In this document: positions 11,100 through 33,258 of the stretch, piece by piece
How the letters are laid out: every line of letters begins with the position of its first letter
How positions within the stretch are numbered: the first letter of the stretch is position 1
NCBI GenBank assembly: GCA_001247695.2
Contig: LGRX02010069.1
Span: 1-41,830 of the forward strand
DNA: 41,830 nucleotides
Source of the DNA: Cymbomonas tetramitiformis
Lineage: Eukaryota > Chlorophyta > Pyramimonadophyceae > Pyramimonadales > Pyramimonadaceae
Reading direction: 5' to 3'
Made by a program: the position numbers and the translations under genes
The notes under the pieces: generated by a model
What the model was told of the DNA's origin: nothing
Seen by the model: the letters and a program-made list of their open reading frames with translations, nothing else
The model's database searches: none

Positions 11100-11616
11100 T
11101 ATATGTCCCCAATATTCCAATTCCAAATGCTACCTGGGGACGACTTTCTGATTTTTTAAAAAATCGGCATTCAGCCCCCTCGGCACAACCCCTTAAAAAT
11201 GGGCATTTGTGCTTGACGCGTGGTCGGCGTGGCAGGCTTGGTCAGGCATGACTCGACCCCCCCCCTTGTGCGATTTGACTTTATAGTCGTCATTGGTATA
11301 CATCCTGCATATTCTGATTTCGTGGCAGCCGCATGTAAGCAAGATCCGTGTGGGTAGGGGGTACATTTTCGAAAAGTGTGTTCGAAATCGCAAAAAAGTG
11401 CCCCTTGATTTATGAGCATGACTATGGGCTTCTTGGGGAAATGGCGATATCGGTGGGCAAACTTGTGTGTTAAGGTCATTTGTGTTGTTTGAATGCTACC
11501 CATGTGAGTTGTGCACATGGCGATATGTTGTATGCCTACCTCAGATCATGTAGATAGCCGAAATCTAGCGAGTTTTGTCCAAGGGGGTAGGGTGTAAAAT
11601 TGCGCGATTTGGGGGT

Positions 11617-12528
11617 ATGCTTTTTCAGGTGGTCCCAACGGTGTCTTCCACTCCTCTGCCTCAAGTTTCGCCGCCAACACCTCCTCCATCCACCACTCCA
11701 CGACACAAGAAGCGGTGGGAGTGTGTTCTGAGGTGGGAGGCGATGAAGAAGGCTGGCGAAGCGCCCAATATATCCGCCATCGCCCGACAATTCAAGGTGA
11801 AGCGCGCCTTTGTGACCAAGTGGGTGGACTGTTACCAGAGTACTGGGGGCGTCAGTGACGGTGTTGTAGGTCGACCTAGTGGGCTTGGCACCCAGAAACT
11901 GGGGACGGTAGGCTGTAAGCGAGCTCGTGAACTTGCACAAGGCAAAGATGGTGACGATTTGGACACCAAACGTGTGAAGAAAGCCTTACAACATGAAGGC
12001 TATCACCATGTCAGCCGACACACCGTGAGCCGGGCGTTGAGGTCATCCATGCGAGGCACGGTTATTCCACTGAAGTACAAAGCCCCCAAAGTGGTCATCG
12101 GAATCAACGCGCTGCAACGACAGAAGCGTGTCATATTTGCTCGACGAAATCGTGACCGGACTTGGAAGAATGTGCTCTGGACAGACAGCAAGTACTTCGT
12201 GGTGGGCGGTAAAGCCGGGGGGACACTTGCCAAATTCAGATGGGTACCACAAAACGAGGCCAATACATGCGAGACCAACAAGAATGCGATCCAAGGTCAC
12301 GTGTACGCAGGCTTTGGTTGGCATGGAAAGACTGACCTCGTCTTCGTCAGTGGGACCACTGACAAGAAACGCCCTGCTGAATATGGCCGGGGCAAAGGTG
12401 TCAATGCCAAAGAGTACATGGCGGTGCTGCAGGAAACGCTCATCCCAGGGGCGAAGAAGATATTCGCAGCTCGTGAACCGAACTCGTGGGTGTTCAACGC
12501 ATATGTAAATCCCGGAATGAGGCCGTGA
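11617..12528 (+). pseudogene. Tc1/mariner-like transposase, truncated
   Basis: The frame is open from an ATG at 11617 to TGA 12526-12528, about 303 aa. A good acceptor (TTTTTCAG, ending 11628) just after the ATG may mean the real start lies in an upstream exon. The N-terminal half has a helix-turn-helix region (ISAIARQFKVKRAFVTKWVD) and a second DNA-binding segment (HHVSRHTVSRAL). The catalytic part begins normally with NVLWTDSKYF, the first Asp at about residue 190. The protein ends at NSWVF, exactly where the second catalytic Asp motif (WVFQQD-type) should follow, and is replaced by a 10-residue unrelated tail. The second Asp and the last acidic residue are absent, so it is inactive as read. 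It lies 0.5 kb from the mariner-type element but is outside its inverted repeats. Confidence 0.65.
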
Positions 12529-14494: not shown

Positions 14495-14548
14495 CCCGCA
14501 AGGGAGAACCGCTCCGGCGAGGCGTTCGGTGGGCTGCATTCCGAGGGT

Positions 14549-15180
14549 TTGGAGGTCAACCTTGCGCAGATGCCCGAGCACCAGACGATCGGCGACATCT
14601 TGGGTTCACCCACAGGTTCCGTCTGCACGCGAGAGACTGAAGCTTTACCTCCAGCTGCACAGGACCATGAGGTCACCTCAGTCGTGCCATCACCGACCCT
14701 TGGCTCCACAGCGCCCAACAGCCCCGATCGGCCCTGTGGTCGCGTCGCGAGCACCGATGTCCAGCATGACGGTCATCGTGAGGTGCGCCGACCTGACTTG
14801 ACCGCAGGGCTCGCACACCAACGCTCTCCGCGGAGTGGCCAGCGCAGGAGAAGATCTCCGAGCCCCAGGAGGGAGACCCGGCGTCCTGGGGCCGCTCGCA
14901 TTGGGCACGCAGGCGGGAGCGCGCCGCGTGCGTCAGGCGTGCCGCTGAGTTACGATGAAATATGGGAGGAGCGGAGGAGAGATGCTGCACTGGGACCTTT
15001 TCAGTGGGGCGCCGGGCCCGCTGCAGCCCGGCGCGCCCGCTACTGAGAAGCAGCCCCGGCATGGAGCCGGGTGCACAGCCTGCCGCCAAGCGGTGGGCGA
15101 GGCACGCTCAGACGTGCTTCCTACTCGTGGGGGTGTTCGCGCGCTTGCAATGGCCGCAGCTGCCTCATTTTGCGGTGATG
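14549..15180 (+). pseudogene. Relic of a second retrotransposon related to the 15.5-kb element
   Basis: The frame 14549-15046 aligns along its length with the C terminus of ORF2 of the large retrotransposon. Shared stretches include LAQMPEHQTIGDIL against [25 protein letters not shown], and the tail [12 protein letters not shown]4-LGPF ending in [14 protein letters not shown]. Downstream, 15114-15180 matches the start of Pol ([22 protein letters not shown]). The relic stops abruptly at about 15180, where satellite sequence begins. Similarity is high but clearly lower than between the two A repeats of the large element, so it comes from a different family member and not from that insertion. 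Confidence 0.75.
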
Positions 15181-15454
15181 GTCAACGGGCGACGTAGTCG
15201 AATTTTCGATCTCACGATCGCCAGACGCCTACGATGACAGTGCCACAACAGTCGCGTGTATGTACCGCGACGCCACCCACGCGTTATGGCATGGCATGCT
15301 GGGAAGCAAAAAGCGAAGCACTGTCGCGCACATGATCCTGCGGTCATATGATGTAATGGCGATATCCATGTTAACATCGCATGGTAATTAACCGTGCTGT
15401 CCAAAAGGATCGACGCCTAGTGGAGATCGCATATTTGTGATCGACAACGCTTAG
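15181..15454 (+). repeat. Satellite unit left of the retrotransposon, 5' end missing
   Basis: Starts inside CAACGGGCGACG and runs through CACGATCGCCAGACGC, CACGCGTTATGGCATGGCATG and GATCGACGCCTAGTGGAG to TTAG. It is nearly identical to the short satellite units at 31231, 31566 and 32405 but lacks their CAG run. It shows that the field at 31227-33258 once continued to this side. Confidence 0.9.
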
Positions 15455-15566
15455 CCCTCTGACCTTTATAATCTTCACCCAAACCAAATTACCTACCTCT
15501 GACCTTTATAATCTTCACCCAAACCAAATTACCTTACTTACCTTACCTACCTCTGACCTTTATAAT
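15455..15566 (+). repeat. Minisatellite, left part (target of the retrotransposon)
   Basis: Three units of about 38-55 bp share CCTCTGACCTTTATAATC and TTCACCCAAACCAAATTACC, separated by variable TTACC tetramers. The third unit is cut after CTTTATAAT by the retrotransposon, and the same word continues as TAATCTTCACCC at 31090. Confidence 0.9.
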
Positions 15567-15950
15567 TGTCACAAACCACGGCTTATCGTGTACCTCAGCC
15601 GGGTTGTGACACTTGCTGTAGCAGTCTCTGTGACGAACGTATGACGCGCGCAGTACGATACGCGCGAGGAGTTATGACAGTGACGAGATACGGAAATACG
15701 GATGGGTGTTACACTTGTTTGGAGATAACGAGAATAAGTAGGGCGGCGTAGTGAGAGTGAGCAGACGCTCATTTTTGTTTTGCCTTCGTAACAGTGATTC
15801 CGAGAATAACCAGGACTCGCTTGAGACCGCGAAAACAGCAGTGTCATGAGATAATTAATAAGATACAGTATTCTTATGCTTGTAAAGATATACATTTGTG
15901 GACTTGCCCTTGTGCGACTGCGTCAGAACTGTAATTAACAGTCTTTTTCA
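15567..15950 (+). repeat. Repeat A1, left terminus of the retrotransposon
   Basis: 384 bp from TGTCACAAACC to GTCTTTTTCA, repeated as A2 at 30482-30865 with three substitutions by eye. It contains TGTAA near its end. It is immediately followed by the leader (AAACAAAAATG) and lacks the B segment that follows A2. Confidence 0.95.
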
Positions 15951-16696
15951 AAACAAAAATGTGCCTTATTACAGACATGTCGTCTGTAATGCTGAGAGTT
16001 CAACAGCAGTCCTGAAGAACGAGACCTCTGAATGGTGATGCCAGGGACGGATATATCCGTACTGGTAAGCCTTGGAAGAGGTTGAGTGAAGCAGGCTGTT
16101 GCGACACTCGAAGTTCACCAGTCTTGCGAAGTACAGCGACAGCGGTCACAGCAGAGCCAGTTGCTAATTTTACGAACATGATTGCAGCGTTGAGAATTAT
16201 GTACTGGGCTATTTCGGGAAGTGACATCCTGCTGGAGCAAAGCACCAGACGGTAAAGCCAGGGACGGATTCATCCGTACTGGTACACCTGAAGGCGTGGA
16301 GCGAAACAGGACTGTCAGTGGGCATCTTCACGACAGCATTCTTTGTGGTCACCTGACTCATGCTGGCGTTCTACTGACATACTGCGTGGACCAGAGACAC
16401 TAAGTGCAGAGGCAACCCTGCTGGACATCTGGGAGAGCCAATATAAGACCGGGTCACAGATGGAACCTTGCTCACCAGTCGTGGACGAGATTATGCTGGC
16501 AGTGATTGCTACTTAGAGCAAAGCACTGAAAGGTGAGGCCAGGGACGGATTCATCCGTACTGGTAAGCTGGAAAGTGTGGAGTGAAAAGAGCCTTCACAC
16601 CAGTATTTCTTCTTCACCAGAAAGGTAGCAACGGAATCCAAGGCTGACCGCGAGGAACAGCAACGGGCAGAGAGGCGTGCTCAGAGGGCGATACGA
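15951..16696 (+). promoter_or_regulatory. 5' leader with three palindromic repeats
   Basis: The motif GCCAGGGACGGATNNATCCGTACTGGT occurs at about 16040-16066, 16257-16283 and 16538-16564. The core of copy 1, ACGGATATATCCGT, is a perfect palindrome, and copies 2 and 3 have ACGGAT-TC-ATCCGT. GAGCAAAGCAC precedes copies 2 and 3. Copies 1 and 3 are followed by GTAAG. Packaging or dimerisation hairpins, or splice-linked elements, are possible roles. The Gag frame is open from 16586, so the last copy lies just before it. Confidence 0.5.
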
Positions 16697-19600
16697 GTGA
16701 GCCAGCATTTCTCAGAGCTGGAGGGAGAGGAAGGGGCTGCCGGTGGCCAGCCTGAGGCACAAGCACTAGTACAGCCTGAGGCACAAGCACCAGTCCAACT
16801 GCAAGCCCAAGCTCAGGAGCCATTAGTAATCTTTGAAGAAGACATGGAGTATACTGACTACGCTCGTGTCAACCTTGGGACGCTGCCCAACTACACGGGC
16901 ACCAAGGAAGAAGATCGGCCCAAGTTCCTGAGGGAGTTCGCCGACATGTGCGAGAATTTCGTACGGCAGCACAACGCCAACGTCAGGAAGAGGCTCAGGT
17001 CCGGGGCTGGCACTCTCACTGAAGCTCAGCTGAAGACCCTGAGAGAGACTCCCCCTGATTTTGAATATCTGTGGGACATGATCCCTGCGTGTCTGGCTGG
17101 AGAGAACTCACAAGCTCTCAGCTGGTGGCGCGAGAACTATGAAAGAGGGGGGGTAGTGACCTCCAACATGGACCGAGTCCTGAAGGACACTAGCGAGCAT
17201 GGCCCACTCGAGGGTACTATTCCATGCGCTAGGCCCCCTTTCAATGAGATGAACACTGGCGCCACGTGGGTGATAGCGAGGCCGGTGACGAACCAAGACA
17301 CCCAAGGGGAGGTTTCCGACGAATACCTGACTGATGGAACCTCCCTGAAAGGCTTGACGGGACGTGATGGCACCCGTGATACCCAGTACTTCTACGCGCT
17401 CAGGGGCTTCATCGCTGCCCTTGACAAGAAGTTCATGATGAAAGGGACTCAAGAGAAAGTGGATCTGTTGACACAGAAGCCACAGGAGGTGGGGCAGGAT
17501 GGGCTGACCTACATGAAGATGTGCCAACGCAGGGAAATGCAGCTCAACACTGGGAAGGTGTTGAGCGATGAAGAGCTGCGTACCTTCATCGAGGACTGCG
17601 TAGACAACCTGCGCATCAAGATCTTCCAGACGCGGGTGAAGGAGCAGTTGAGGGCACAGTTCCCGCCACCCAATCGGGTGACCTGGAAGGACCTGGAGGC
17701 CATCATCGAGGTTCAAGACAAGCTCAAGGGCGATGCAGAGTCTTGGATCCTCACCTTCCTCCAGGAGATCACCAGACGATGTGGCTGCCAGTACTCCACC
17801 TGGGAGGCGCGACAGCATGGCCTTGACCTCAAGGCCATAAAGAACTCGATCAAGAAGATTGAATCCTCTGAGGTGGCGCAGTCAGGCGAACCGGAGAACA
17901 GCAAGAAGGTAGATGCATCACCTTCTAAAAAGATGAAGAAGGAGGTGAATGTGGCCGAAAGGGCTAAGAAGGCCTCCTACAACAAGACACCACCGCCAGC
18001 AGAGGGCGTGCGTACGAACGACAAGCCCAAGTGCTTGCGCTGCTTTGGAGGGGGCTGGCATGAGTCCGATCCCGAGCAGTGCAGGAGTGGTTATAAACAC
18101 GTCAAGATGCCTGCTGGATTCCACGAAAGCAGGCTTGGTTCCAGCAAGTGGTGGGACGCGGAGAACGCCGCTCTGCGCATGTATAATCTGAAGAACCGCT
18201 TCAAGAACTCTGACTGGGGCATCCTGGTGACGGACTGGCAGCAGCTGTCCAACGAAGAGAAGGACAAGTACAGAGCCAAACAGCCACCAGAGGACAAGCA
18301 GAAGAGCGCCACTGGCAATCCCGAGGCGTTGAAAGCAGAGTACCAGGGCATGGTGGCTGCTAGGAAGACGGCCAGTCGTGCGGGCAGCGTGAAGTCGCAG
18401 GTGCTGTCCGAGGATGAGGGCTCCGACGGGGAACCAGTCGCAGCGCACGTCGCGGAGAGGGAGACGCACACCGTCGACACATGCGCGCACCACCATGGCA
18501 GCGCAGGGGTAGGAGTGTCGTCTGGCCCTCCAACCGAGTTACTCACAGCCATGGCCGAGGAGATGGGCGAAGAGGAGCTCTCGAGCGCCCTCAACACCTT
18601 GGGTCTGGGGGCACTCCCCGAGACGCTGTGCAAGAGTGTGGAGTCTGAACTCACGGCGGCTCCAGCAGTAGCCCTGGGAAGTACCCAGCGCATGAGGGGC
18701 TTCCCAGTGAAGACACCCGAGGAGTACGAGGCAGACGCACAGGTGCCCATGGCGCCTGCGGCGGACGAGATGCAGAGGAAGGTGCAGCTCATGGCCTCCG
18801 TGATCAAGAGCCTGGGAGCAGCTTTCCGCAAGCTAGCTGCTGGACTCGTAGCAGAAGGTCGCATATCAGCTCCAAGGGGTGTGGAGACCTTGGTGGAACT
18901 GGCTGAGAACGACCAGCTCCCCGTGCCGACAGCCTCAGCAGCAGACTGCCAGGACACCAGCGACGAGGATGATGACTGCCCGGGCATGGAGTCGGGCGAC
19001 GACAGTGACGAAGAAGAGATTCCTCTGGATGAGATGCCGGAGGACATGGTGGAGCAGCCCAGGAAGGAGAGGACGACGGTGCGTGTAACAGCTGCAGCGG
19101 CCACCGTCCAGGAGAGCTACGGGGTGAGAGACTTCAGCGAGAGGGGTGAGCTGCACGCAGGGACCATGGACGCTAAGGCGTACGAGCTATTGAAGAAGAA
19201 GATGCTCAGTGGCCTTACAGAGGAACAGCTCACTGCCATGGCGCAGGTCCAGCCTGTATGCAAGCTCCTGAACGATTCTCTGGCACAAGGGATGGCGCTG
19301 ATGGCCTCTGGAGGCTTGCTTATGTTGTACAAAGCGCTTCTCCTGGACACGGGGGCCAACTGCAACATTATCCCAATCAGGACAGCCAACAGGCTGGGCT
19401 TGACCATCTTTGATGCAGAGACAGGGGCCAGGGTGGCGAGATGTGATGGCAGCCCTGCGGAATTCACGAAGTACTGCTACGTGGATGTGGTTCTCGCTGC
19501 GGGCACGCCGTACATGACTCTGCATCGGCTCCACGCCTTCGTCACCTACACCAATGACACGACGTGGGACTTCTTGGTGGGCACTGGACCCCTGAAGAAC

Positions 19601-20386
19601 GCCCTCAAGTTGACCATCGACCTCTACAGAGGCATTGCTACTTCTGAGGCCGCGGTGTCACTGGGTATGAAGGAGAAGGTCACGTTGCCATTGATCGAGT
19701 TGACGCCGCCCGTCGATGCAAGGAGCAAGCGGAATGAAGACCCGAGAGTGTGCCTGGCGACCGAGATCTTCGACGTTGAGGCCGCGACAGCGCGCACTCT
19801 TGCCCCCGCTTTTGATGATTGCGAGCTACCACCACGTGAAGCAGTGTCCCTGGACACGAGGGGAGAGGACCGTCTGGCCCTCGCAGGGGAAAGGTGTTCG
19901 CCTGCACCTTGTGCATTCTCGCGAAACCACCCCGAGCTGATGGAGAGCCTGGCGTCATGGCTAGAGGAGATGAGGCTGAGAAGGTTCAACTCGGATGAGA
20001 GGGAGAGGCTCGAGGCGCGCTGCCAGTCCATGGTGGAGGCAGGCTTCTTGAAACCCAGCTCAATGATGCAAGTCGAGCTCACTGGGCGGGTCAGCTTACA
20101 CGCCGAGAACGCAACGTACGAACCTCCTCCGCCTGGTACGTCCTTGACAGACCAGATGCTGGGCATGCTACAAGCATCATCACGCAGCCAGCGGGAAGCC
20201 AATGTGGCGACCAGGGGTGAGTGGTCCAGTGCTGAAGAGCCAGATGCGAGGGAGTCCCGCACTCAAGCCAGCCTGACCACAACTCAGTCAGACCCTCGCT
20301 ATCCAGACCTCACGCTGAGGCAGGAGGCCGAGAGCGAAGCTGCCTTCAAGCTGGCCAGCGTACAGCCATGGGGGGCATGGCAGTGA
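16697..20386 (+). CDS. Gag-protease polyprotein of the retrotransposon (ORF1)
   Basis: The frame is open from 16586. The position given begins at a GTG codon, and the first ATG in frame is at 16844 (codon 50, MEYTDYARVN), so the true start is either that ATG or an upstream spliced exon. About residues 60-360 form a helical Gag core. A zinc-knuckle-like site follows at C446-x2-C-x5-H-x6-C462, then a Lys-rich helix (about 496-532, WQQLSNEEKDKYRAKQP) that loosely resembles the end of an HMG box, and an acidic stretch (about 755-790). A retropepsin-type aspartic protease has LLLDTGANCN with the catalytic Asp at residue 884, and DFLVGTG behind it. Gag would build the particle, and the protease would process it. 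The stop TGA (20384-20386) overlaps the ORF2 start. Confidence 0.8.
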   Translation: MSQHFSELEGEEGAAGGQPEAQALVQPEAQAPVQLQAQAQEPLVIFEEDMEYTDYARVNLGTLPNYTGTKEEDRPKFLREFADMCENFVRQHNANVRKRLRSGAGTLTEAQLKTLRETPPDFEYLWDMIPACLAGENSQALSWWRENYERGGVVTSNMDRVLKDTSEHGPLEGTIPCARPPFNEMNTGATWVIARPVTNQDTQGEVSDEYLTDGTSLKGLTGRDGTRDTQYFYALRGFIAALDKKFMMKGTQEKVDLLTQKPQEVGQDGLTYMKMCQRREMQLNTGKVLSDEELRTFIEDCVDNLRIKIFQTRVKEQLRAQFPPPNRVTWKDLEAIIEVQDKLKGDAESWILTFLQEITRRCGCQYSTWEARQHGLDLKAIKNSIKKIESSEVAQSGEPENSKKVDASPSKKMKKEVNVAERAKKASYNKTPPPAEGVRTNDKPKCLRCFGGGWHESDPEQCRSGYKHVKMPAGFHESRLGSSKWWDAENAALRMYNLKNRFKNSDWGILVTDWQQLSNEEKDKYRAKQPPEDKQKSATGNPEALKAEYQGMVAARKTASRAGSVKSQVLSEDEGSDGEPVAAHVAERETHTVDTCAHHHGSAGVGVSSGPPTELLTAMAEEMGEEELSSALNTLGLGALPETLCKSVESELTAAPAVALGSTQRMRGFPVKTPEEYEADAQVPMAPAADEMQRKVQLMASVIKSLGAAFRKLAAGLVAEGRISAPRGVETLVELAENDQLPVPTASAADCQDTSDEDDDCPGMESGDDSDEEEIPLDEMPEDMVEQPRKERTTVRVTAAAATVQESYGVRDFSERGELHAGTMDAKAYELLKKKMLSGLTEEQLTAMAQVQPVCKLLNDSLAQGMALMASGGLLMLYKALLLDTGANCNIIPIRTANRLGLTIFDAETGARVARCDGSPAEFTKYCYVDVVLAAGTPYMTLHRLHAFVTYTNDTTWDFLVGTGPLKNALKLTIDLYRGIATSEAAVSLGMKEKVTLPLIELTPPVDARSKRNEDPRVCLATEIFDVEAATARTLAPAFDDCELPPREAVSLDTRGEDRLALAGERCSPAPCAFSRNHPELMESLASWLEEMRLRRFNSDERERLEARCQSMVEAGFLKPSSMMQVELTGRVSLHAENATYEPPPPGTSLTDQMLGMLQASSRSQREANVATRGEWSSAEEPDARESRTQASLTTTQSDPRYPDLTLRQEAESEAAFKLASVQPWGAWQ

Positions 20387-23112
20387 ACCCGTGGGACTAC
20401 CAAGACAAGGAGAGTAGCTGGTCTCAGCAGCGCTTGTACATCGACCGCACGGGCTATGCTCGTCTGTGCACACTCTGCGAAGAGGTCGATGGAGGTGGTG
20501 TAGACACAGGATTTGTGCAGGTCAAGTTCCCGCGATGTGGAGAATACAAGACCATCCTGGAGACGGAGCTACTGTGGCCCGACTTTACGTTGGTGGACCA
20601 GAAGGTTGACAAGGAGACGAAGATACCCTCAGAAACCTGGACCACGAGGCCGAGCGGCAAGAAGGACAACGACCAGGTCCCACTCCCTGACTGTGGTGCC
20701 CATCGGGAGGCAGGAAGGTACACGATGGCGAGTGTTCAGGAGGTCCTCAACACCCATCAGACGTACCCAGGAGTCGTGACGGGCAAGCTCATGTGGGACA
20801 AGGTGGCGCGCCAGTTCTGCGTACTCAGCGAGCACACTCGCGCCCAATGGGATCTCATGGAGCGCATGGTACGTCACACCATGGAAGGCGTCACCATCAT
20901 GAACCCCATGGGCAAGATGACTGGCGAGTTCCAGCTGCCTTTTTACTATGAGAAGGACCAGCGCTGGCAGTACCAGCATCTAAAGTACGTACAGCGAGTG
21001 GACATCGCTGACCTTCGAGCTCGTCTGAAGGTGAGGTACGATATGGAGGTGGCGAGCGAGGTGAATGTGATCCCGCAGCTCACGCTGTCAGACGCAGCGG
21101 ACAAGGTGGGGAAGTTCTACCCGGTGACAGATGGGGAAGGAGGCAATGGCGAGGTGTTTAGCACGAACGCTGCCGCCGTGGAGTACCTGCATCTTGGGGA
21201 CAACCCGAGAGTGATGCTCGGAGCATGCAAGACAGAGGAGCAAGCACAGGACGCGCTGGACACTTATGGGGCCAGAAGAAACCCTCCAGTGCGCACATCC
21301 AAGACTCTCAGGACGTCGAGGACGGTCAGGGGGGATGAGGCAGGGCCATCTGGCTCCGCACCGCCACCATCTTCAGCACCGCTTCGTTTACGGCATCAAA
21401 CCTGGCCCAACGGCGTCTTCGACCCTGCCATGTTGGATTACCACGCTGCAGTGTTCCAGGGCACCTACGAGCCGGAGTCGCCCACTCGCAGCGAGAACAC
21501 AGCTGGAGAAGCCAACTGGCTGGACCTGGGAGAGATCTCGGAGTTCATGGCGCTGCAGGGACAGACGGTCTTCCTCATCCAGTACCGTTGCTTCATGGGC
21601 AAGATCGAGTTCCAGCTCGGGAAGCCCTTCGCGCAGCGAGGAAGGGGGGTGCACACGCAGCAACTCAGCAACCAGACCCTGCACCGGTACGCTTCCTCCG
21701 CAGGAGTGGGACAAAGGGAAGAGTTTCTGCCTCTGGGTGGGCAGTCGAAAGGCTGCACGGGAGGACTCCTCGGCACCTTGCAGAAACATATGACACATCT
21801 GGTTGATCGCACTCAGCTCTTGGAGATCGCCAGAAGCCATTTGAGCGATGGCCCACGGCAGGGCACCCTACGGGTTTTCAAGACCCGTGCCAACGCCCGG
21901 TCCAAGGCAGTGTATTACCTCTTTGAGGACAATCGCTACTACAGTGAGCAGGGGCCCAGCAGCATGGCGTTCACCTTGGAGTACCTCTCCTCAGTCACGC
22001 GCAAGTTTGACTGCTGCAGCTGGGAGACCTGGAACAAGGTGGCGGTGATGCACCGAGAACCATTGTCTGCGTTCACGTCCTCGGTGGGCCCGGCGTTGCT
22101 GGCTGAGGCACGTCGGGCAGAGGTGCAGGAGCGTCTTCGAAACGACTTCATGAGGAACCTGGACCCAATCGAGGGAGAGGATGCAGGAAGTGAGGAGGGA
22201 GACGACAGCATCTCAGGATACTCTTCCGACCCCGCAGCTGTTGAGGGTGTGAGCACTCACACGGGTCGCACCAGGACACCGTCGCCGCTGACAGAAGATG
22301 AAGTGGAGGTCATCGGTGAAAGACTGGTTGGGCTGTCTGCCAGTTTGGCGCGGAGGGAGGCCGAGGTCGCAGCAAACCACCTCGCCATGGCGGCTCTCTC
22401 GGAATCGATACAGGCGCGTCAGGCGATCATCAGAGGACATGAAGAACGACCTCGCACTGCCCACGCAACTGCGAGGATTGGGGCGAGAACGTCCACGCCG
22501 GCGCCCTACACTGGCCGAGTTCTCGGCGGGATATCAACCATGGGCACGCAGGCCACGTCCACGCCGACACCCTACTCTGGCCGAGTCCTCGGCGGGATAT
22601 CGACCATGGGCTTGGAGTGCAACATGGCACAGAGGCCTGAGCACCATTCAATCCACGACATCCTGAGATCCCCTGCACATTCCGTCTGCACGCAGCAGAC
22701 TGAAGCCGTGCCTCCGGCTGTCCCAGGACAAGAGCCGGACTCCGTTTCATACGTGCCATCAACCCCGAGCTCTACAGCACCCAGCAGCCCGGAGCGCTCC
22801 AGTGGCTTCGTTGCGCATGTCGACACTCGACCTTCAGGCCAACCTGCAGCGCGCCCGCAGAGTCCAACTGGGGGTGCCGCACAGCAGAGTTCACCACGGG
22901 CTGGTCAGCGCAGGAGGAGATCTCCTAGCCCCGAGGAAGGCGCTCATCGTCAGGACGCGTCTCGCGGTCGGCATGCCGGCATGGGCGCGTCGCGGGCTCC
23001 CCAGAGACACCAAAGTTATGATGAGATCTGGGAGGAGAGGAGAAGGGAGAGCGCACTGGGGCCTTTTCAAGGGGGCACCGGGCCAGCTGCAGCCCGGCGC
23101 GCCCGTTACTGA
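20368..23112 (+). CDS. ORF2, 914-aa protein of unknown function in the retrotransposon
   Basis: ATG at 20368 overlaps the last 19 bp of ORF1 in the -1 frame, within CCATGGGGGGCATGG. Translation could be by reinitiation or by slippage on the G run. The first 600 residues are mixed alpha/beta with no domain I recognise. The middle is Ser/Pro-rich. A 22-aa unit ([18 protein letters not shown] and its copy) is duplicated at about residues 709-749. The C terminus is Arg/Ser-rich (QRRRRSPSP), then [11 protein letters not shown], and ends [10 protein letters not shown]. That tail is kept in the relic at 14549, which suggests selection. It is Arg-rich and could bind RNA or direct nuclear import. It is not a typical envelope protein, since I see no signal peptide. 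Confidence 0.75.
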
Positions 23113-23177
23113 GAAGCAGCCCCGGCGAAAAGCCGGGCACGCAGCCCGCCAATGATAGGCGGGCGAAGCGCATTCAG

Positions 23178-26100
23178 GTGTGCTTCCTGCTCGTGGGGGT
23201 GGTCGTGCGCTTGCGTTGGCCGCAGCTGCCTCATTTTGCAGTAATGGCAGTGTGGATGGCTATGGAGGTATTCAGGTTTCTTGGTGAGGTCGTCGCCTGC
23301 TGGGCATTCCACGCTGAGGCGCCCCGCAGAGCCATGGCACGCGCGTTGTGGGCCGTGCGCGCAACGCCACTCGAGCCATGGGCACATCAACAGGCGCCTC
23401 TCCGAGTGCTGTTGGCACTGGCCAGGCACCTACTGCTGTTGACCAAGGGCGCTCTTGAGGTAGCTGGGCTCCATCACGCTCGGCGTGGGCTGTGGTACGT
23501 GCCGTTGATACGGTTCTGCCTCGTCATGCTCGCCATGCGCTTCACACACATGGTCGGCACTCTGGGGTGCGTCTTGACGGTTGGCGCCCACATTGTCCAC
23601 CATGGGTTGCCATGCTCCGGCTCAGTTCAAGATGGTGGCACATTCGCCGCGCTGGAGACTCAGGTGGGTCGCGCGCTGGCGGTCGCCCAGCGGATCTTGG
23701 CCGCCGGGCCGGCTACGCTGGCCGCTGTTCCGCGGCGCATGCAGAAGCCGCGCTTTGCCGCTCGACTGCAGCGCCTGCAGTTCACTGCCGCTTGCTACCG
23801 AGTGGCGCACTGTGTCTATGTGATATCAGTCTTGGCGCTGGTGGTCTACGTGTCTGCAGGAGGAGGCCTGGGCCGTATGCAAGGGGGGTGGAAGATGTTG
23901 ACTTGCATACTGACCCTTCACCCTCCAGTTAAACCAGTGGGTACCGGCAGAATTTTAAAACTTTTGCTGCTGCTAGCGGTGGCTGCTTGGGTGGCCGTCG
24001 TGGCCCCTGGGGAGCCTCAGGGCGCGCTGACGATGGACACGTGCTCGAGCTCGCCGATCAGATCTACCAGGACCGCCTGGGAAGACCAGAGGTCTTCGCG
24101 CCAATGGGACACCGGATGGGAGGCTATGGTGGCAGAGCAGGACGAGGTGCTTCCGCACACGGTGCTGGACACGTTACAGCCAGGGGGCACAACCAGGGTC
24201 ACCAAGGACGAGGCCGCGTGGCTGGACACCGAGCTCAATGCCACCTTTGGAGGACATCCCGAGTTCACCGAGGAGAATTGGGAGGAGATGCGCAACGTGG
24301 TAAGGAGGTGCAGCTACTGCTTCGCCAACAAGCCGCAGGACATCAAAGGCTACCATGGGGGCGCGACACATGCGACCTTCGCCATCCCTTTCAAGGACGA
24401 GACTAAGGTAGCCTACCAACGACCGAGGAAGTACAGCCCGGGAGAGCAGGAGATCATCGACCTGCACTGCAAGGAACTGCTGGAATATGGCTTCATCGAG
24501 CCGGCTTCGCAGCACTGCAGGCACGCCAGCAACGTGGTGGTTGCAGGGAAGAAGGATCACGACACTGGACAGTGGACCTCGACGAGATTCTGCGTCGACC
24601 TCCGATCTACGAATCGGTTGTCGCTGAAGGATAATACGTTACCACACCGTCCAGAAGAGCTCTACCAGCGCGTGGCCAAGGCCAAGTTCAAGACTACCCT
24701 GGACGCGACCAAGGCGTTCCACCAGATTCCCATGACCACTGAGGAGGACAGGGACAAGACAGCGTTCTGGTGGGGCAACCAGCTTTATCGCTACACATCC
24801 ATGCCGTTTGGAGCAGCTGGAGCAACCGCAGCCTTCATCAGGATCATGGACTACGAGCTACGTCATCTGCAACACTGCACGGTGGCGTACGTCGATGACG
24901 TGTGCATATACTCAGACACCGCTGAGCAGCACATCAAGGATGTGGAAGCCGTGCTTCGCACTTTGGGGGATGCAGGGATACGTCTGCATTCGGGCAAGTC
25001 AACCTTCGGGTCAGCCACGGTGGACTTCTTGGGCTACCGCATCGGCTATAACACCATTGGCGCGCAGGACATCAAGTGCAAGGCCATCCAAGAGCTGCCC
25101 AAGCCCGAGGACAAAACTGGAGTACGCTCCATCCTTGGACTCATGAACTACTACAAAGGTCTGGTGGGGGAACCCATGGGACCCAACTACTCAGAGATGG
25201 CACGACCATTGAACGACCTGCTCAGAAAGGAAGTGTTGGATGTCAAGGGAGCTTGGGGGAAGGATCAGGACCAGGCATTACAAGCATTGAAGGATGCCCT
25301 GTGTTCGGGGAGATGTCTGAAGCCCATTGATTACAGCAAGCCTATCTTCCTCTACACAGACTGGAGCAACCATGGCATTGGCGCAGTGCTGGGGCAGAAG
25401 GACGAGAATGGCGTAGAACACATCTGTGTGGTCATCAGCCGCTCGCTGTCGAAAACCGAGAGACAGTACGCGAGCTTCCAGGGTGAGATGCTGGCAGTGG
25501 TGTGGGCCATCCGCACATTACGACAGTACCTGCACGGGGTCCACTTCACGCTGATCACCGACCATTCGCCGCTCACAACACTCATGGAGAAGGGTGACCT
25601 ACAAGGTCAACACCTACGCTGGGCCATCAGCCTCCAGGAGTTTGAGTTCACGGTCCAGTACCGACCAGGTCCGAAGAATGAGAACGCGGATGTGCCATCC
25701 AGGTATCCACTGCCCAGCACCGCAGACGAGACTGGTGCCCGTTTGGACCGTGAAGGGGACCGAGCCAGGGAAGCGGGGCGTGCCGAGAGGCCAACGCGCT
25801 GCTTCACAGACGCCATTTGCTGGGAAGTGACCAGGGAGCCACCACTTGGCCCCGAAGTAAGCCCAGAAGCTCAGGTGGCCAACTACTGCGAGAACATGGT
25901 CAGGGAGCAGCTGGGGACCAGTGCAGTCCATCGACTGTTTGATGTACACTACCAAGAAGAGCTGGAGTGTAACAAGGGGGTCATGTTTGACACTGACCAC
26001 CCGGAAGTGGCCAGGTGCTCGGGCAGGTTGACTCGGGTCGCCTGGGATGCCCTCAGCCAGGTACGGCCGATCAGGGGTATGCATTCCGGAGGCTCACCAG

Positions 26101-29100
26101 CGATATACGGCGACGAGACCATGGAGGGTGGTAAGCTCAAAGTGCCGAAGAAGATCGACACGAGAGTGATTGACAAGAGCTTCTTCCAGGAAGCCAGAGA
26201 AGAGGGCGTGGTCTGCTATGAGCCGTGTGGGGGCCTGTGTGCTGGACTAGAGATGCTCTTGCGCTGCGGAGTTAAGGTTAACAAGTACCTCTACCAGGAC
26301 ATCTCGAAGTCCAGCCAGACGGTAGCCAGGGCCAGGTGCATGGCGCTCAGTCGCCGTCATCCTGACTTGTTCCGTGCCGAGGCAGCCCACTTGGAGCAAC
26401 TGCCCAGCAACATCGAAGACACCAGCCTCATTGACCTTGTACATGCAGGGGCATTGAGTGGAGAGCAGTGGGTCATGGTGTGTGGATATCCATGCCAGGA
26501 CCTGTCACCAGCTGGCAAGCTGGCTGGTCTGGAGGGCAGGCACAGCAGACTGTTCTACCAGGCAGTGCGAGTCCTCTCCACGCTGCAACAGCTGCAGCCT
26601 CAGAGACCGCCAGCATATGTGCTGGAAAACGTTTCTCCGCTGTCACACAAGGAGAACTCAAAGATCAGGAAGGAGGTGTTCCCCATCATCAACAGCGTGG
26701 TGGGCCAGCCGGTGTCCTTTGACGCGGCGCGCGCGGGATCATACGCGCATCGTCTACGAGCATATTGGAGCAATCTGTTCCAGAATCAGCAGTTCAATCT
26801 GGTGATGGAGCGGGTGGACAGACCACCAGACAGATACGTGCGCGATATTCTGCAGCGAGGCTGGAAGCCACGCAGGGTCGTCACAGGAGACAGGAAGCCT
26901 CACTACACCGCCAACGTTGTAGGGGAGCCCATGAGAGTATTGCCAACCATCTTGGCGACGCAAAACTCTCGTGCTTTTCGCGCGCCTCGCGCAGGCACAG
27001 TGGTGAGGGAGGGAGATGATGATGAAGTGGGGGAGACCAGAGAGGTTAACCTGGACGAGAAGGCAGTGGCCATGGGGTACAGCGCAGGTGAGCTGCGCGC
27101 GGCACATGGCATGAAAGACGAAGAATTGGCAGGAGTGCTTGGCCTTGCTATGGACCGAAGAGCAATGGAGCTATTGTATGCGATTGCCGAGGTCAGCACG
27201 ACCAAACTGCCGATGAGTGAGGAGAGTGAGGAGAAGGAACATGGCACGTTAGTTGCCATCCCCATCGTGAAAGCCACCAAGGTGGCTGCCACCTCCGAGG
27301 GCACGGCTGAGCCGGTGCGAGCCCAACTAGCAGAGTGGATCACCAGTTCCAACGGCTACACCCAGCAAGTCGCGCGACGCCTCAGCCATCAGGACTGGGA
27401 AGAACGACTGCAACGCATGTGCAGCCAAGGACAGAAAGGTACACAGGGGCTAGGCACCGCCGACGCTGTTCCACGCCGCAGGCAGTGGAAGATGGCCTCC
27501 ATGAAGCTCGCGGGCTACGAGGCACGTCACCGGCAGGCCTTTTCAGGACCTGGAGACAAGCCAGCAGAGACAAGTTCAGCCCCAGAATGGGCACCAGTGA
27601 CAAAGGAGAAAGAGATGAGGCTGCCTAAGCTGCCCGACACGACGAGGATGGTTGCCATGCTAGCCAGCGTAACCAACCAGGAGTCATTCCGAGAAAGACA
27701 CCCCGACATACACGAGGACGAGCTATGCCTCGCGTGGATCAAGACAGGAGGAAGAGTGGAAGTGCCCAAGGAGGAATATCACAGGGTAAGGAAGAGGGCA
27801 GCGCGTCACCGTTGGGACGAGCTCATGGGCGAGTTATACATGGTCACTGTCAGTGGTAAGGAGCTGCTGGTGCCCAAGCCCTGTGACAGGATTCAGTTGG
27901 TGCGTGAGTACCATGAGAGGACTGGCCATTGGGGCATCAGGCGGACATTGAACCTGTTGTGGCAGCGCCATTACTGGGCAGGCATCAAACAGGATGTGCA
28001 AGCAGTGGTCACTCAGTGCCAGACTTGCCAGAGGGTGAAGACGCACTATGCACGGGAGGAGGCGAATCTCACGCCGCTGGAGATCAAGTCCTTCATGTAT
28101 CGCTGGTCCCTGGATTTAGCGTGGCCCACGAAACGCGTCACGAAGGCTGGGAACCAACGCGTCTTGGTCATGATTGAGCACTACACGCGATTCGTTGTGT
28201 GCGTTCCAATCCCCGACAAGGAGGCCGCCACCATCGCCAACGCATTTCGCTATCATGTCCTATCCGTGTTTGGGGCGCCTGCAGAATGTTTGGTGGATGG
28301 GGGCACAGAGTTTGAAGGTGAGTTCTCTGCTCTATGCGAGCAGTGTCTCATTGACCGAAGAGTGACTTCACCGAGTTCCCCAGAGAGCAATGGCTTGACT
28401 GAACGGGTGGTACGCACCCTCAAGTTTTGCTTCAAGAAGATGGCCCTCGACAAGGGCCTGGACTTCGAGTGGGATGAGATGCTCTGGTCACTCGTACTCA
28501 GCTACAACGCAGCTAGGCAGCAGTCCACTGGAGTGGCGCCATTCACCTTGCTGTTCGCTCAGGAAGCCACGGTGCCACCGGATCTTCGTGCTCGACCCGA
28601 GTTGGACTTTGGGAAGCAGGAGGAGAAGACACTGGCTGATGATCTGTTGCAGCGAGCCGCCATCGTGAAGAGGCTCATGGTACATGCAGGGTGCAACCTG
28701 GAGATCGCTCAGCACCGCGACACTTTACGGTACGAGCACAGGAGGAGTGGCAGTTACGAGCCGAAGCCGCACCAGTTCAAGGCAGGCGATTTCGTATATA
28801 TACGACAACAACCGCGCTCTGGCATGGAGGTGGCCACCAAGTCAGCCATCCTGAAGATAGTCAAGGTGCAAAGAGATGGAGTGGTAGTGTTGGAGGACAG
28901 CACGAAGCTGCGGGAGAAGAGCACAGTGCAAAGTATTGCGCCATGTCACTTACAAGTGAAAGACCAGTACGACTGCAGTGCAGCCATTCCCAGCAAGCAT
29001 CTCGCGTGTGAGGTGTGTATGCGGACAGATGGGGAGGCAGCCATGTTGCTGTGTGACACCTGTAACCGTGGTTATCACACGTGGTGTCTGAATCCGGCGC

Positions 29101-30221
29101 TGGATGGAGTACCTGAAGGGGACTGGCAATGTCCCAAGTGCTTAGGTGGGACTGTGGTGGCAGCTGCCGCCGAGGTGAGCGCGTCAATCGTTGACAAGAT
29201 GGCGGCCATGGAGTTGCAGTTGAGAGAGAAGCTGGGATCAGATGTGGTATTGTTGCCTGCAGACGTGGGTCCGCATCGTGCAGTGAGGCCGGGACGTGAA
29301 GACCCATGGCAGGCGCTGAGCTCGCGGCAGATGCTCAGCAGAGAAGGGAGCATGGGGGATCTTCCTGACAGAGTGGCCTGGGGAAGCCAGGAGGAGCTCA
29401 GCAGGGTGATCACAGAAGTGATGCCAGGATTCTGGCATGAGGGCCATCGTACCATCTTGAGCAGGAAGTGTGCAGAACAGCACGCTCGCGCGAGAAGTCT
29501 CCGCAAGACGTCCACGGTGCAGGCCATGAGCCCCGAGGAAGTTCAGAAGAGAGGAGATGTCACACAACTGAGCAGAGCTCAGGTGAAGATTGCCAGTCAA
29601 CTGGATTGGGGCTTAGAGTTGGTGATGACAGTTCCTCAGGAGGTCAGGCGTTTGGCGCACGAGGTGACTTGGGAGAAGATCACACAGGTATGGGATCCTT
29701 GGGCTGGCACAGGTGTCATTGGCAAGGTTATGTCACTGGAGTGGCCTCATCTGAAGGTCATGAATAATGATTGGAATCCGCAGTTGAAGTGGCACGAAGC
29801 CCTTAATGCTTTACAACCGGGCAATTATCGAGCCTGGAAGGAGAAGTATGGGGTGTGTGACGCAGTGGTAACTTCACCCTGGTTCGCAGTGCTGGATATT
29901 GCGTTGCCGTTGGCAGTACTGGCCAGCCGAGTGGTGGCTTGTATTCATGTGCCATCGCACTACATGACAGATATGACAGAGAGCAGGGCACAATACTTTC
30001 GTAAGCTGTGTCACGCTGGACGTTTACATGTGATTGGGCATTTGGAGCATGGACCTATTGGCAGAAGATGCATGTGGGTCATGGTGTTTCGCAACCCTTT
30101 GACAAGAGCCAGGATGTTGCGAGGAGGAGAAGCTTCTGGAGTGGGTATGTTTACCTTCAGCATGGGCAAGTTCGCAATGGATGGCGTTACAACAGAAGAT
30201 GCTGAGCAAGCTCTTGTCTAA
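23178..30221 (+). CDS. Pol polyprotein with RT, RNase H, DNMT, integrase, PHD and MTase-like domains (ORF3)
   Basis: The position given is a GTG. The frame is open further left, at least to 23040 and so overlapping ORF2 in -1, and the first ATG is at 23244. Residues 1-280 hold several hydrophobic stretches ([42 protein letters not shown]). RT spans about 395-660, with [22 protein letters not shown] and the catalytic YVDD at 571-574. RNase H has D728, E770 and D795 ([24 protein letters not shown]). A DNMT3-like C5 methyltransferase follows (about 1005-1350). The integrase has the HHCC zinc site (about 1575-1621) and D1646, D1707, E1742 with D-34-E spacing. A PHD finger lies at 1944-1988, and a second methyltransferase-like fold at about 2145-2320. 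At 2347 aa it is far longer than usual gypsy Pol. Confidence 0.9.
26190..27225 (+). other. DNMT3-like cytosine-C5 methyltransferase domain within Pol
   Basis: Motif I is [16 protein letters not shown], motif IV is [11 protein letters not shown] with catalytic Cys1106, and motif VI is YVLENVSPL (Glu1150-Asn1151). Motif VIII is [10 protein letters not shown]. The terminal motif is [25 protein letters not shown] followed by [12 protein letters not shown], and RxRAYWSNL, are closer to DNMT3 (PCNDLS, RYFWGNL) than to DNMT1 or CMT enzymes. All catalytic residues I can check are present, so activity is plausible. It sits between RNase H and integrase. Confidence 0.85.
29007..29141 (+). other. PHD finger within Pol
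   Basis: Cys4-His-Cys3 pattern: CEVC, then MLLCDTC, then GYHTWCL, then GDWQCPKC, residues about 1944-1988, with usual PHD spacing and the conserved Trp before the last CxxC. PHD fingers commonly bind histone H3 tails, so a chromatin-reading role after the integrase is likely. Confidence 0.85.
29610..30140 (+). other. Second methyltransferase-like domain at the Pol C terminus
   Basis: [15 protein letters not shown] (residues 2171-2185) fits the SAM-binding motif DPxxGxG of DNA amino-methyltransferases. NNDWNP, about 20 residues later, could be the acidic motif II position. [11 protein letters not shown] (TSPWF at 2232-2236) fits the (D/N/S)PP(Y/F/W) catalytic motif with the second Pro replaced by Trp. 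The order I-II-IV fits N6-adenine or N4-cytosine enzymes. Catalysis is uncertain because of the altered motif IV. Confidence 0.6.
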
Positions 30222-30247
30222 TGTCTGTGCTACCGGTGGCAGCTACA

Positions 30248-30256
30248 GATGGGGGA
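30248..30256 (+). promoter_or_regulatory. Candidate polypurine tract
   Basis: GATGGGGGA ends directly before the TGTTGAG start of B1 and 27 bp after the Pol stop. In LTR elements this is where plus-strand priming occurs and where the 3' LTR begins, which makes B1 the start of U3. Confidence 0.5.
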
Positions 30257-30479
30257 TGTTGAGAAAAAGAGCTTGCACAAGTGGTGAGAAGAGATAAAGA
30301 GATATCAAAAATTTTGAGATTTTGTATAGTACAGTAGCAAGATAACTGTGCAGTCATATAAGGAAACATATGCAAAGTCGAGCTAGTGTTGTATAGGCAC
30401 TGACAATAAGTAAGACTGTCTAGTAGTAGGGCTAGAGGGTTGTGCTTTGTGTGGACGCTTCGTGCATAAGTTCGCGACA
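30257..30479 (+). repeat. Repeat B1 (internal copy)
   Basis: 223 bp from TGTTGAGAAAAAG to TTCGCGACA. It is repeated as B2 at 30866-31089 with three substitutions and one 1-bp indel. It is followed by GC and A2, and the junction GACAGCTGTC is a perfect 10-bp palindrome. Confidence 0.95.
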
Positions 30480-30481
30480 GC

Positions 30482-30865
30482 TGTCACAAACCACGGCTTA
30501 TCGTGTACCTCAGCCGGGTTGTGACACTTGCTGTAGCAGTCTCTGTGACGAACGTATGACACGCGCAGTACGATACGCGCGAGGAGTTATGACAGTGACG
30601 AGATACGGAAATACGGATGGGTGTTACACTTGTTTGGAGATAGCGAGAATAAGTAGGGCGGCGTAGTGAGAGTGAGCAGACGCTCATTTTTGTTTTGCCT
30701 TCGTAACAGTGATTCCGAGAATAACCAGGACTCGCTTGAGACCGCGAAAACAGCAGTGTTATGAGATAATTAATAAGATACAGTATTCTTATGCTTGTAA
30801 AGATATACATTTGTGGACTTGCCCTTGTGCGACTGCGTCAGAACTGTAATTAACAGTCTTTTTCA
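30482..30865 (+). repeat. Repeat A2 (internal copy)
   Basis: 384-bp copy of A1, ending TTTTTCA and directly abutting B2. Confidence 0.95.
30796..30849 (+). terminator. TGTAA poly(A) signals in A2
   Basis: TGTAA at 30796-30800 and 30845-30849. Transcripts starting in A1 and ending near the end of A2 would have A-derived sequence at both ends, as LTR elements need for strand transfer. Confidence 0.4.
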
Positions 30866-31089
30866 TGTTGAGAAAAAGAGCTTGCACAAGTGGTGAGAAG
30901 AGATAAAGAGATATCAAAAATTTTGAGATTTTGTATAGTCACAGTAGCAAGATAACTGTGCAGGCATATAAGGAAACATATGCAAAGTCGAGCTTGTGTT
31001 GTATAGGCACTGACAATAAGTAAGACTGTCTAGTAGTAGGGCTAGAGGGTTGTGCTTGGTGTGGACGCTTCGTGCATAAGTTCGCGACA
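30866..31089 (+). repeat. Repeat B2, right terminus of the retrotransposon
   Basis: 224-bp copy of B1, ending GCGACA and followed at once by the TAAT target duplication and the resumed minisatellite. Confidence 0.95.
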
Positions 31090-31226
31090 TAATCTTCACC
31101 CAAACCAAATTACCTTACCTTACCTACCTTTGACCTTTATAATCTTCACCCAAACCAAATTACCTTACTTACCTACCTCTGACCTTTATAATCTTGGCAC
31201 CAAGTAAATTACCTTACTTACTTACA
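31090..31226 (+). repeat. Minisatellite, right part
   Basis: Continues the unit cut at 15566: TAATCTTCACCCAAACC, then two more copies of CTTTATAATCTT with AAATTACC and TTAC tetramers. One variant has GGCACCAAGTAAATT in place of CACCCAAACCAAATT. Confidence 0.9.
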
Positions 31227-31234
31227 TAGTCAAT

Positions 31235-31279
<45 letters not shown>

Positions 31280-31943
31280 AGCTCGAATCCCAACGAACGA
31301 CGCAGTCGAATTAACGATCTGACGATCGACAGACGCTAGCGATGACAGTGCCACAACAGTCGCGTGTATGTACCACGACGCCACCCACGCGTTATGGCAT
31401 GGCATGCTGGGAAGCAAAAAGCGAAGCACTGTCGCACACATGATCCTGCGGTCATATGATGTAATGGCGATATCCATGTTAACATCGCATGGTAATTAAT
31501 GGTGCTGTCCAAATAGATCGACGCCTAGTGGAGATCGCATATTTGTGATCGACAGCGCCTAGTACCTTAATCAGCAGCAGCAGCAGCAGCAGCAGCAAAG
31601 CTCGAATCCCAACGGGCGCGGACGCAGTCGAATTTTCGATCTCACGATCGCCAGACGCCTACGATGACAGTGCACTGCAGTCGCGTACATTTATCGCGAC
31701 GCCACCCACGCGTTATGGCATGGCATGCTGGGAAGCAAAAGGCAAAGCCCTGTCGCGCACATGATCCTGCGGTCAGATGATGTAATGGCGATATCCATAT
31801 TAACATCGCATGGTAATCAATCGCGCTGTCCAAAAAGATCGACGCCTAGTGGAGATCGCATATTTGTGATCGACAGCGCCTAGACCTCTGACCTTTATCG
31901 TCTTGGCATCAAGTAAATTACCTTACTTACTTACTTAGTCAAT

Positions 31944-31979
<36 letters not shown>

Positions 31980-32410
31980 AGCGCGAATCCCAACGGGCGA
32001 CGCAGTCGAATTTTCGATCTCACGATCGCCAGGCGCCAACGATGACAGTGCCACTGCAGTCGCGTACATTTATCGCGACGCCACCCACGCGTTATGGCAT
32101 GGCATGCTGGGAAGCAAAAGGCAAAGCACTGTCGCGCACATGATCCTGCGGTCAGATGATGTAATGGCGAAAATGATTTAAACATCGCATGGCCGACGCG
32201 ATGTTCGGAAATCAGATAGATTCGCTTTTACATTGCATAGCAGACGCGAGGATCGAGAAATGTCAAATCATTAATGGAATGGCAGACTCGATGTTCATGT
32301 TCGGATCTCTCGAGTGCGCCACGTCGGCAAGATAAATAATTCCATCGACCGTCAGATGCGCCTAGTGGAGATCTTAATTTAAGATCGACCGGGCCTAGTA
32401 CTTAGTCAAT

Positions 32411-32443
<33 letters not shown>

Positions 32444-33258
32444 AGCTCGAATCCCAACGGGCGATACAGTCGAATGTTCCATCTCACGATCGCCAGACGC
32501 TAACGATGACAGTGCCACAACAGTCGCGTGTATGTACCGCGACGCCACCCACGCGTTATGGCATGGCATGCTGGGAAGCAAAAAGCGAAGCACTGTCGCG
32601 CACATGATCCTGCGGTCATATGATGTAATGGCGATATCCATGTTAACATCGCATGGTAATTAACCGTGCTGTCCAAAAGGATCGACGCCTAGTGGAGATC
32701 GCATACTTGTGATCGACAGCGCCTAGTACCTTACCTTAGTCAGCAGCAGCAGCAGCAGCAAAGCTCGAATCCCAACGGGCGACGCAGTCGAATTTTCGAT
32801 CTCACGATCGCCAGACGCCAACGATGACAGTGCCACTGCAGTCGCGTACATTTATCGCGACGCCACCCACGCGTTATGGCATGGCATGCTGGGAAGCAAA
32901 AAGCAAAGCACTGTCGCGCACATGATCCTGCGGTCAGATGATGTAATGGCGAAAATGATTTAAACATCGCATGGCCGACGCGATGTTCGGAAATCAGATA
33001 GATGCGCTTTTACATTGCATAGCAGACGCGAGGTTCGAGAAATGTCAAATCATTAATGGAATGGCAGACTCGATGTTCATGTTCGGATCTCTCGAGTGCG
33101 CCACGTCGGCAAGATAAATAATCCCATCGACCGTCAGATGCGCCTAGTGGAGATCTTAATTTAAGATCGACCCGGCCTAGACCTCTGACCTTTACAATCT
33201 TCACCCAAACCAAATTACCTTACTTACCTTAATCAGCAGCAGCAGCAGCAGCAAATCA
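31227..33258 (+). repeat. Composite satellite field with CAG microsatellites, long and short units
   Basis: Five full units and one stub begin with AATCAGCAG runs at about 31231, 31566, 31941, 32405, 32740 and 33231. The CAG runs vary from about 6 to 15 repeats. Each unit continues AAAGCNCGAATCCCAACG, CACGATCGCCAG, CACGCGTTATGGCATGGCATG and GATGTAATGGCGA. Units then take one of two ends: short (31231, 31566, 32405), with TATCCATNTTAACATCGCATGG, or long (31941, 32740), with AAAATGATTTAAACATCG and about 130 extra bp containing GTGCGCCACGTCGG. All end in a CTAG...CCTAG hairpin and TTAC tetramers. Minus-strand Leu-rich frames through the CAG runs are artefacts of the repeat. Confidence 0.9.

Follow-up and report, generated by a model that had tools for sequence, protein, structure and literature searches.

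Element architecture and insertion site

A 41,830-nt stretch of the genome of Cymbomonas tetramitiformis, a pyramimonadophyte green alga, was analysed (contig LGRX02010069.1, the whole stretch being referred to below as the window). It contains a 15.5-kb retrotransposon with three long open reading frames (ORFs) and a Ty3/Gypsy-type Pol, whose repeats stand in the order A-genes-B-A-B and whose insertion produced a TAAT target duplication (Table 1). The four repeats, A1, B1, A2 and B2, were found, exact to the base, where a preliminary description of this DNA had placed them. Both A copies are 384 bp long and show three mismatches, while B1 (223 bp) and B2 (224 bp) are separated by three mismatches and one indel. 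Divergence was similar for the two pairs (3/384 versus 3/223, Fisher p 0.67), as expected if both had been copied in the same round, this test being of low power. The differences between A1 and A2 and between B1 and B2 also argue against a duplication made by the assembler. No further copies of A or B were found by BLAST in the window.

Table 1. Features of the retrotransposon and its borders in the window
Feature	Coordinates	Strand	Basis or remark
TAAT, left copy of target duplication	15563..15566	.	empty-site repeat copies
A1, left repeat	15567..15950	+	start TGTCACA; repeat search and direct comparison
Predicted RNA 5' end and self-primer	15770..15782	+	complementary to 15949-15961
Predicted primer-binding site	15949..15961	+	last 11 nt start directly after A1
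ORF1, Gag-like position	16697..20386	+	1229 amino acids from first GTG; weak aspartyl-protease match, residues 881-924
ORF2	20368..23112	+	914 amino acids, between Gag-like and Pol ORFs; no Pfam match
Pol ORF	23178..30221	+	2347 amino acids
Reverse transcriptase and RNase H	24438..25754	+	residues 421-859; best solved relative Ty3 Gag-Pol, E 2.8e-81
C5-cytosine methylase core (PF00145)	26463..26678	+	best solved relatives DNMT3A/3B, E 1.6e-05
HHCC-DDE integrase	27864..28646	+	foamy virus integrase match, 5.3e-09; catalytic D, D, E codons 28113, 28296, 28401
PHD finger	29004..29147	+	profile match
C-terminal domain, predicted fold like S-adenosylmethionine (SAM) methyltransferases	29562..30218	+	structure model and fold search
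Polypurine-tract-like AGATGGGGGA	30247..30256	+	adjoins B1; contains GGGGGA tract
B1	30257..30479	+	end GACA; repeat search and direct comparison
Palindrome GACAGCTGTC at B1/A2	30476..30485	.	predicted integrase cleavage site; same 10-mer in L003 (4611) and L004 (2785)
A2	30482..30865	+	repeat search and direct comparison
A2/B2 joint TTTTTCA/TGTTGAG	30865..30866	.	predicted joined ends of reverse transcript
B2, right repeat	30866..31089	+	end GCGACA; repeat search and direct comparison
TAAT, right copy of target duplication	31090..31093	.	flank comparison

The outer ends of the element read TGTCACAAACC... on the left and ...GTTCGCGACA on the right. The left flank meets A1 at ...CTTTATAAT/TGTCACAAACC, A1 passes into the internal region at ...CTTTTTCA/AAACAAAAATG, and the internal region gives way to B1 at ...GATGGGGGA/TGTTGAG. 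Between B1 and A2 lies a GC spacer (30480-30481), and this junction, ...GCGACA/GC/TGTCACA, consists of the two outer ends plus GC; the palindrome that the preliminary description had noticed there is present as GACAGCTGTC. At A2/B2 the end of A is fused exactly to the start of B (...CTTTTTCA/TGTTGAG), and the right junction with the flank reads ...GCGACA/TAATCTTCACC.

The insertion lies within a tandem-repeat region (15183-15566 and 31094-33253) made of 49-bp and approximately 321-bp units with CAG runs, which extends on both sides of the element. The empty site is visible in four uninterrupted copies of CTTTATAATCTT in this tandem repeat, two to the left (15464 and 15504) and two to the right (31135 and 31184), which identifies TAAT as the target duplication and bears out the earlier proposal of a 4-bp duplication at the outer ends. 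One A is common to the element end and the flank, so that 5 bp would also be possible; the shorter length is favoured because it leaves symmetric ends, TGTC/GACA. Ends of the TG...CA type with a short target duplication are found in Ty3/Gypsy elements as well, but in contrast to these the present element has no complete long terminal repeat (LTR) at its left end, where only A is found.

Coding capacity

The succession of reverse transcriptase (RT), RNase H and integrase in Pol is that of the Gypsy type, and Ty3 provides the best solved relative of the RT. The full HHCC-DDE integrase announced in the preliminary description was recovered with its HHCC and DDE residues, and the candidate catalytic D, D and E as well as the zinc ligands were among the invariant columns of an alignment of 20 proteins. 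No Pfam match to a tyrosine recombinase was obtained in the three ORFs at E 0.01. The possibility of such an enzyme hidden in ORF1 or ORF2 was also considered and was rejected, no match being found even at E 10.

Judging from its best solved relatives, the methylase inside Pol appears to be Dnmt3-like. The 219 C-terminal residues of Pol matched no Pfam family above its cut-off and no PHROGs entry; weak matches to D12-class adenine methylases were seen in 5 of 13 members (best E 0.004). This region carries the motifs DPWAGTG...TSPWF, and many metagenome relatives show matches to it at their C-termini. A structure model built from 13 sequences (mean predicted local distance difference test 77.3, predicted template-modelling score 0.76) gave 146 PDB matches at E 0.001 or better, and among the best 50 of these SAM methyltransferases stood on top, with METTL5 first (E 9.0e-06, template-modelling score 0.47). 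The modelled fold suggests that Pol probably carries two methyltransferase domains, the Dnmt3-like one and the C-terminal one.

Priming signals

The 13 nt at 15949-15961, which overlap the end of A1, are the reverse complement of 13 nt located further upstream in A1. No independent match to this putative primer site exceeded 8 nt among 897 start positions (15800-16696), the 11-mer of the pair occurred in 13 of 20000 order-1 Markov sequences, and a 13-nt pairing was reached in none of 60 simulated regions. When the RNA was folded from 15770, the primer helix closed both the minimum free energy and the centroid structure (z -2.75), and none of 200 shuffled sequences folded as well. A transcript start at 15770 and a U5 end at 15950 are thus predicted. 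Two TGTAA motifs, which may act as the algal poly(A) signal, lie near the end of A (15881 and 15930). On the other side of the genes, a GGGGGA tract ends directly ahead of B1, in agreement with the polypurine tract proposed earlier at this place. A primer site complementary to the predicted 5' end of the RNA recalls the self-primed elements Tf1 and Tj1 (PMC4600332), with the differences that RNA start and priming are only predictions in the present case and that Tj1 has an ordinary LTR layout.

Relatives, precedent and the shared B/A palindrome

At the protein level, RT residues 420-900 of Pol were 99% identical to two C. tetramitiformis proteins and 55-86% identical to 12 more from this species, among 120 matches listed. 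Other Cymbomonas copies were likewise seen as proteins only, with about 96% identity of Pol to P0004 (1965 residues) and 94% to P0005 (2373 residues). In the hybrid long-read assembly of Cymbomonas, the share of LTR elements is given as 15.3% (PMC10675990).

A pattern scan of genome contigs returned 188 stretches, which led to four loci, L001 to L004, on contigs of metagenome-assembled genomes (MAGs), with best-segment identities of 38-43% (38-41% for the Pol of L003 and L004). These contigs are filed under Halanaerobiaceae, Mollicutes and Halorubrum, and the loci are retrotransposons that have PHD fingers or are closely related to elements having them; they are likely eukaryotic contamination of the MAGs. 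In the two loci that reach well past Pol, L003 and L004, GACAGCTGTC was found 52-53 bp downstream of six consecutive G. The Pol proteins of these two are 53% identical over their common part, and beyond Pol a single shared stretch was detected by BLAST, 17 exact bases lying on the palindrome. The contig of L001 ends 63 bp past its Pol ORF, and L002, apparently a near copy of it, likewise has no palindrome of the GACAGCTGTC kind. Perfect 10-bp palindromes numbered 69 in 41821 positions of the window; one placed exactly at B/A is therefore unlikely to be due to chance, and the identical one in both loci even more so. Since the junction GACA-GC-TGTC recurs in two of four distant relatives, namely those extending past Pol, it looks like a feature of the lineage, and we consider it quite probable that the split layout as such is a lineage trait.

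In L003 the palindrome is followed by a Gag-like frame that resembles the beginning of L001 (34%, 2.5e-32), and this order, Pol-palindrome-Gag, is what a collapsed repeat, a tandem or a circle would be expected to show. No C5-methylase match was found in L003 at E 1, and in L001 and L002 the matches to the window flank the C5-methylase domain without covering it. As the palindrome is present in L003 with no such match, the split layout probably does not depend on the methylase.

A search of a phage collection with the Pol DNA and a query of viral contigs with a metagenome homologue were both without match. Viral contigs also yielded 16 pattern stretches with the 20-protein alignment, none of them a relative, and 23 stretches with the pattern GTGACAGCTGTCACG; the latter were dropped as chance occurrences because none of the 23 matched the element proteins by tblastn.

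The preliminary description knew of no DDE element with this layout. A precedent is published: the KnitGypsy-Dnmt3 elements of Klebsormidium nitens combine Gypsy domains and a Dnmt3-type methylase inside Pol with DIRS-type repeats, according to the legend of Fig. 4 in de Mendoza 2018 (PMC5890265). By that description, the layout, together with Gypsy domains and a Dnmt3 methylase, has already been seen in another green lineage. The terms 'target site' and 'circular' are absent from the main text of that report, and no integration model was seen in it. Among the open-licence papers listed in capped searches, judged by titles and abstract openings, no other DDE element with split repeats was found.

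Proposed replication and integration cycle

We slightly favour the view that the DDE integrase inserts this element by cutting a two-LTR circle at the B/A palindrome GACAGCTGTC, and the circle itself is given a comparably modest preference as the integration substrate. Transcription would start in A1 near 15770 and end in A2. The 5' end of the RNA, looped back to pair with the site where A1 ends, would prime the minus strand, and the G-rich tract ahead of B1 the plus strand. In LTR elements, reverse transcription between such a primer site and a polypurine tract leads to an LTR-internal-LTR product. With the primer site at the end of A1 and the polypurine-like tract before B1, the linear product predicted here is BA-internal-BA, and BA (609 bp) would be the LTR as far as reverse transcription is concerned. 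Joining the ends of this product would generate the A2/B2 joint and a two-LTR circle. The integrase would then cut one of the B/A palindromes after CA on both strands and leave a 5' GC overhang: in GACAGCTGTC the two 3'-processing dinucleotides coincide, so that a single cut with a 2-nt 5' overhang may suffice, and both ends (TGTC...GACA) would thereby be already processed for ordinary strand transfer. A circle opened at that LTR would restore A-internal-B-A-B in each round. Opening at the other B/A would give A-B-A-internal-B, and a one-LTR circle A-internal-B; of these forms only A-internal-B-A-B would propagate, the alternatives presumably lacking an A before and after the gene block in a replicable order.

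The chemistry has a parallel in foamy virus, whose integrase cuts the palindrome of its own circle in vitro: both strands are cleaved after CA, the spacer being AT, and a 5' overhang of 2 nt results. The authors of that study proposed that one such cut yields both processed ends (PMC1180852). The foamy virus palindrome arises where the reverse transcript has its ends joined, whereas the one described here lies inside the predicted LTR, away from these ends. This also constitutes a difference from Ty3/Gypsy elements, as the integration ends would be internal to the LTR used in reverse transcription.

Support for cleavage of the circle at B/A comes from the exact identities of ends and junctions, the TAAT duplication with its empty sites, the conserved DDE residues, the lack of a tyrosine-recombinase match, the shared palindrome, the primer pair and the Klebsormidium precedent. 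A number of points weigh against it. HIV-1 (human immunodeficiency virus type 1) integrase cuts its own palindrome mostly with 4-nt overhangs (PMC1905944). Two-LTR circles of retroviruses are held to be dead ends, the circle claim of 1984 having been displaced by evidence for linear DNA (PMC11054761), and circle junctions of murine virus are poor substrates, as indicated by the titles of papers cited in PMC1180852. As to the element itself, a single integrated copy was seen, and the circle, the end of the RNA and the cleavage were all inferred rather than observed. End joining should moreover leave some variation at A2/B2, which is invisible in one copy. In the relatives L003 and L004 the palindrome can be seen, but no ends of integrated copies. 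L004 lacks the primer pair (its longest match is 9 nt, a length reached in 33 of 60 simulations), and in L003 the pair is weak (12 nt, 2 of 60 simulations); for this reason self-priming was not used as a lineage feature.

Alternative explanations

The layout could be an accident of this single copy, in a family with ordinary B-A LTRs, if a palindrome present by chance had been cut in a stray two-LTR circle. B-A does resemble an ordinary LTR, with its TG...CA ends, the polypurine-like tract before it and the primer site after it, and no second integrated copy was read. A one-off event nevertheless appears unlikely in view of the same layout published for the Klebsormidium Gypsy-Dnmt3 elements and of the same palindrome in two distant relatives. 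These two observations favour the first of the readings offered in the preliminary description, a family that has evolved split repeats with a DDE integrase. The second, a two-LTR circle reopened at a B/A junction, also fits in its chemistry, but such an opening is likely the normal route in each round rather than an accident. Misassembly of a repetitive region has to be mentioned since the element belongs to a multi-copy group. It is very improbable: the repeat copies differ from each other, TAAT adjoins the element at either outer end within a single tandem target, and the junction palindrome is also present in contigs of other organisms.

Another possible explanation can be based on the repeat order, which is that of PAT and Ngaro elements (A1-internal-B1-A2-B2; PMC4157794). 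Replication could follow their mode, with an RNA running from A1 into B2, the B1-A2 segment templating the joining of ends and A2/B2 being simply inherited, while the integrase would still open the product at B/A. End joining would then be unnecessary. This possibility seems doubtful, as ordinary LTR reverse transcription, with B-A in the role of LTR, is already predicted from the primer pair and the G-rich tract, and as the RNA might terminate within A2 at the TGTAA motifs, provided that these act as the algal poly(A) signal. The repeat order, and nothing else, would also be accounted for by a tyrosine recombinase acting in trans, supplied by a DIRS-type element of the host. PAT and Ngaro elements encode such a recombinase and are inserted with no target duplication (PMC4157794), whereas the element described here shows a TAAT duplication and itself encodes a DDE integrase whose catalytic residues are conserved; recombination in trans is therefore hardly conceivable.

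Flanks and remainder of the window

A fragment in the left flank (14545-15181) is about 76-77% identical to positions 22608-23247 of the element, that is, to the end of ORF2 and the start of the Pol frame, and is likely the relic of a related element. Further away, 6.7 copies of a 200-bp unit with 97% matches occupy 3301-4645, and an ORF at 11575-12528 has weak helix-turn-helix matches, among them a Tc3-type transposase family. Scans of the window for Rfam families and for tRNAs, the latter set to the bacterial code, were without match.

Significance

The Klebsormidium report leaves three observations as new: the recurrence of the B/A junction GACA-GC-TGTC in two of four distant relatives; a Tf1-like 13-nt pairing at the end of A1 which, with the G-rich tract, predicts BA-internal-BA; and the nature of the junctions, A2/B2 being an exact fusion of the predicted product ends and B/A a putative ready-made integrase site. 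Split repeats are taken as a sign of a tyrosine recombinase, and the present element, for which both the ends and the target duplication are at hand, indicates that DDE integrases can own them too. Classification by repeat order alone would thus misfile such elements.

We see an even chance that in one Gypsy-type lineage the site used by the integrase no longer lies at the ends of the reverse transcript but has been shifted into the LTR, where it stands as a preformed circle junction. The two-LTR circle would then be the real precursor of integration, and the split A-internal-B-A-B arrangement would be re-created in each round. The anatomy of the element makes an old question testable, namely whether a two-LTR circle can be the normal substrate of a DDE integrase. 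If so, this lineage would provide a functioning example from nature of integration through a circle junction, the mode claimed for a retrovirus in 1984 and subsequently given up.

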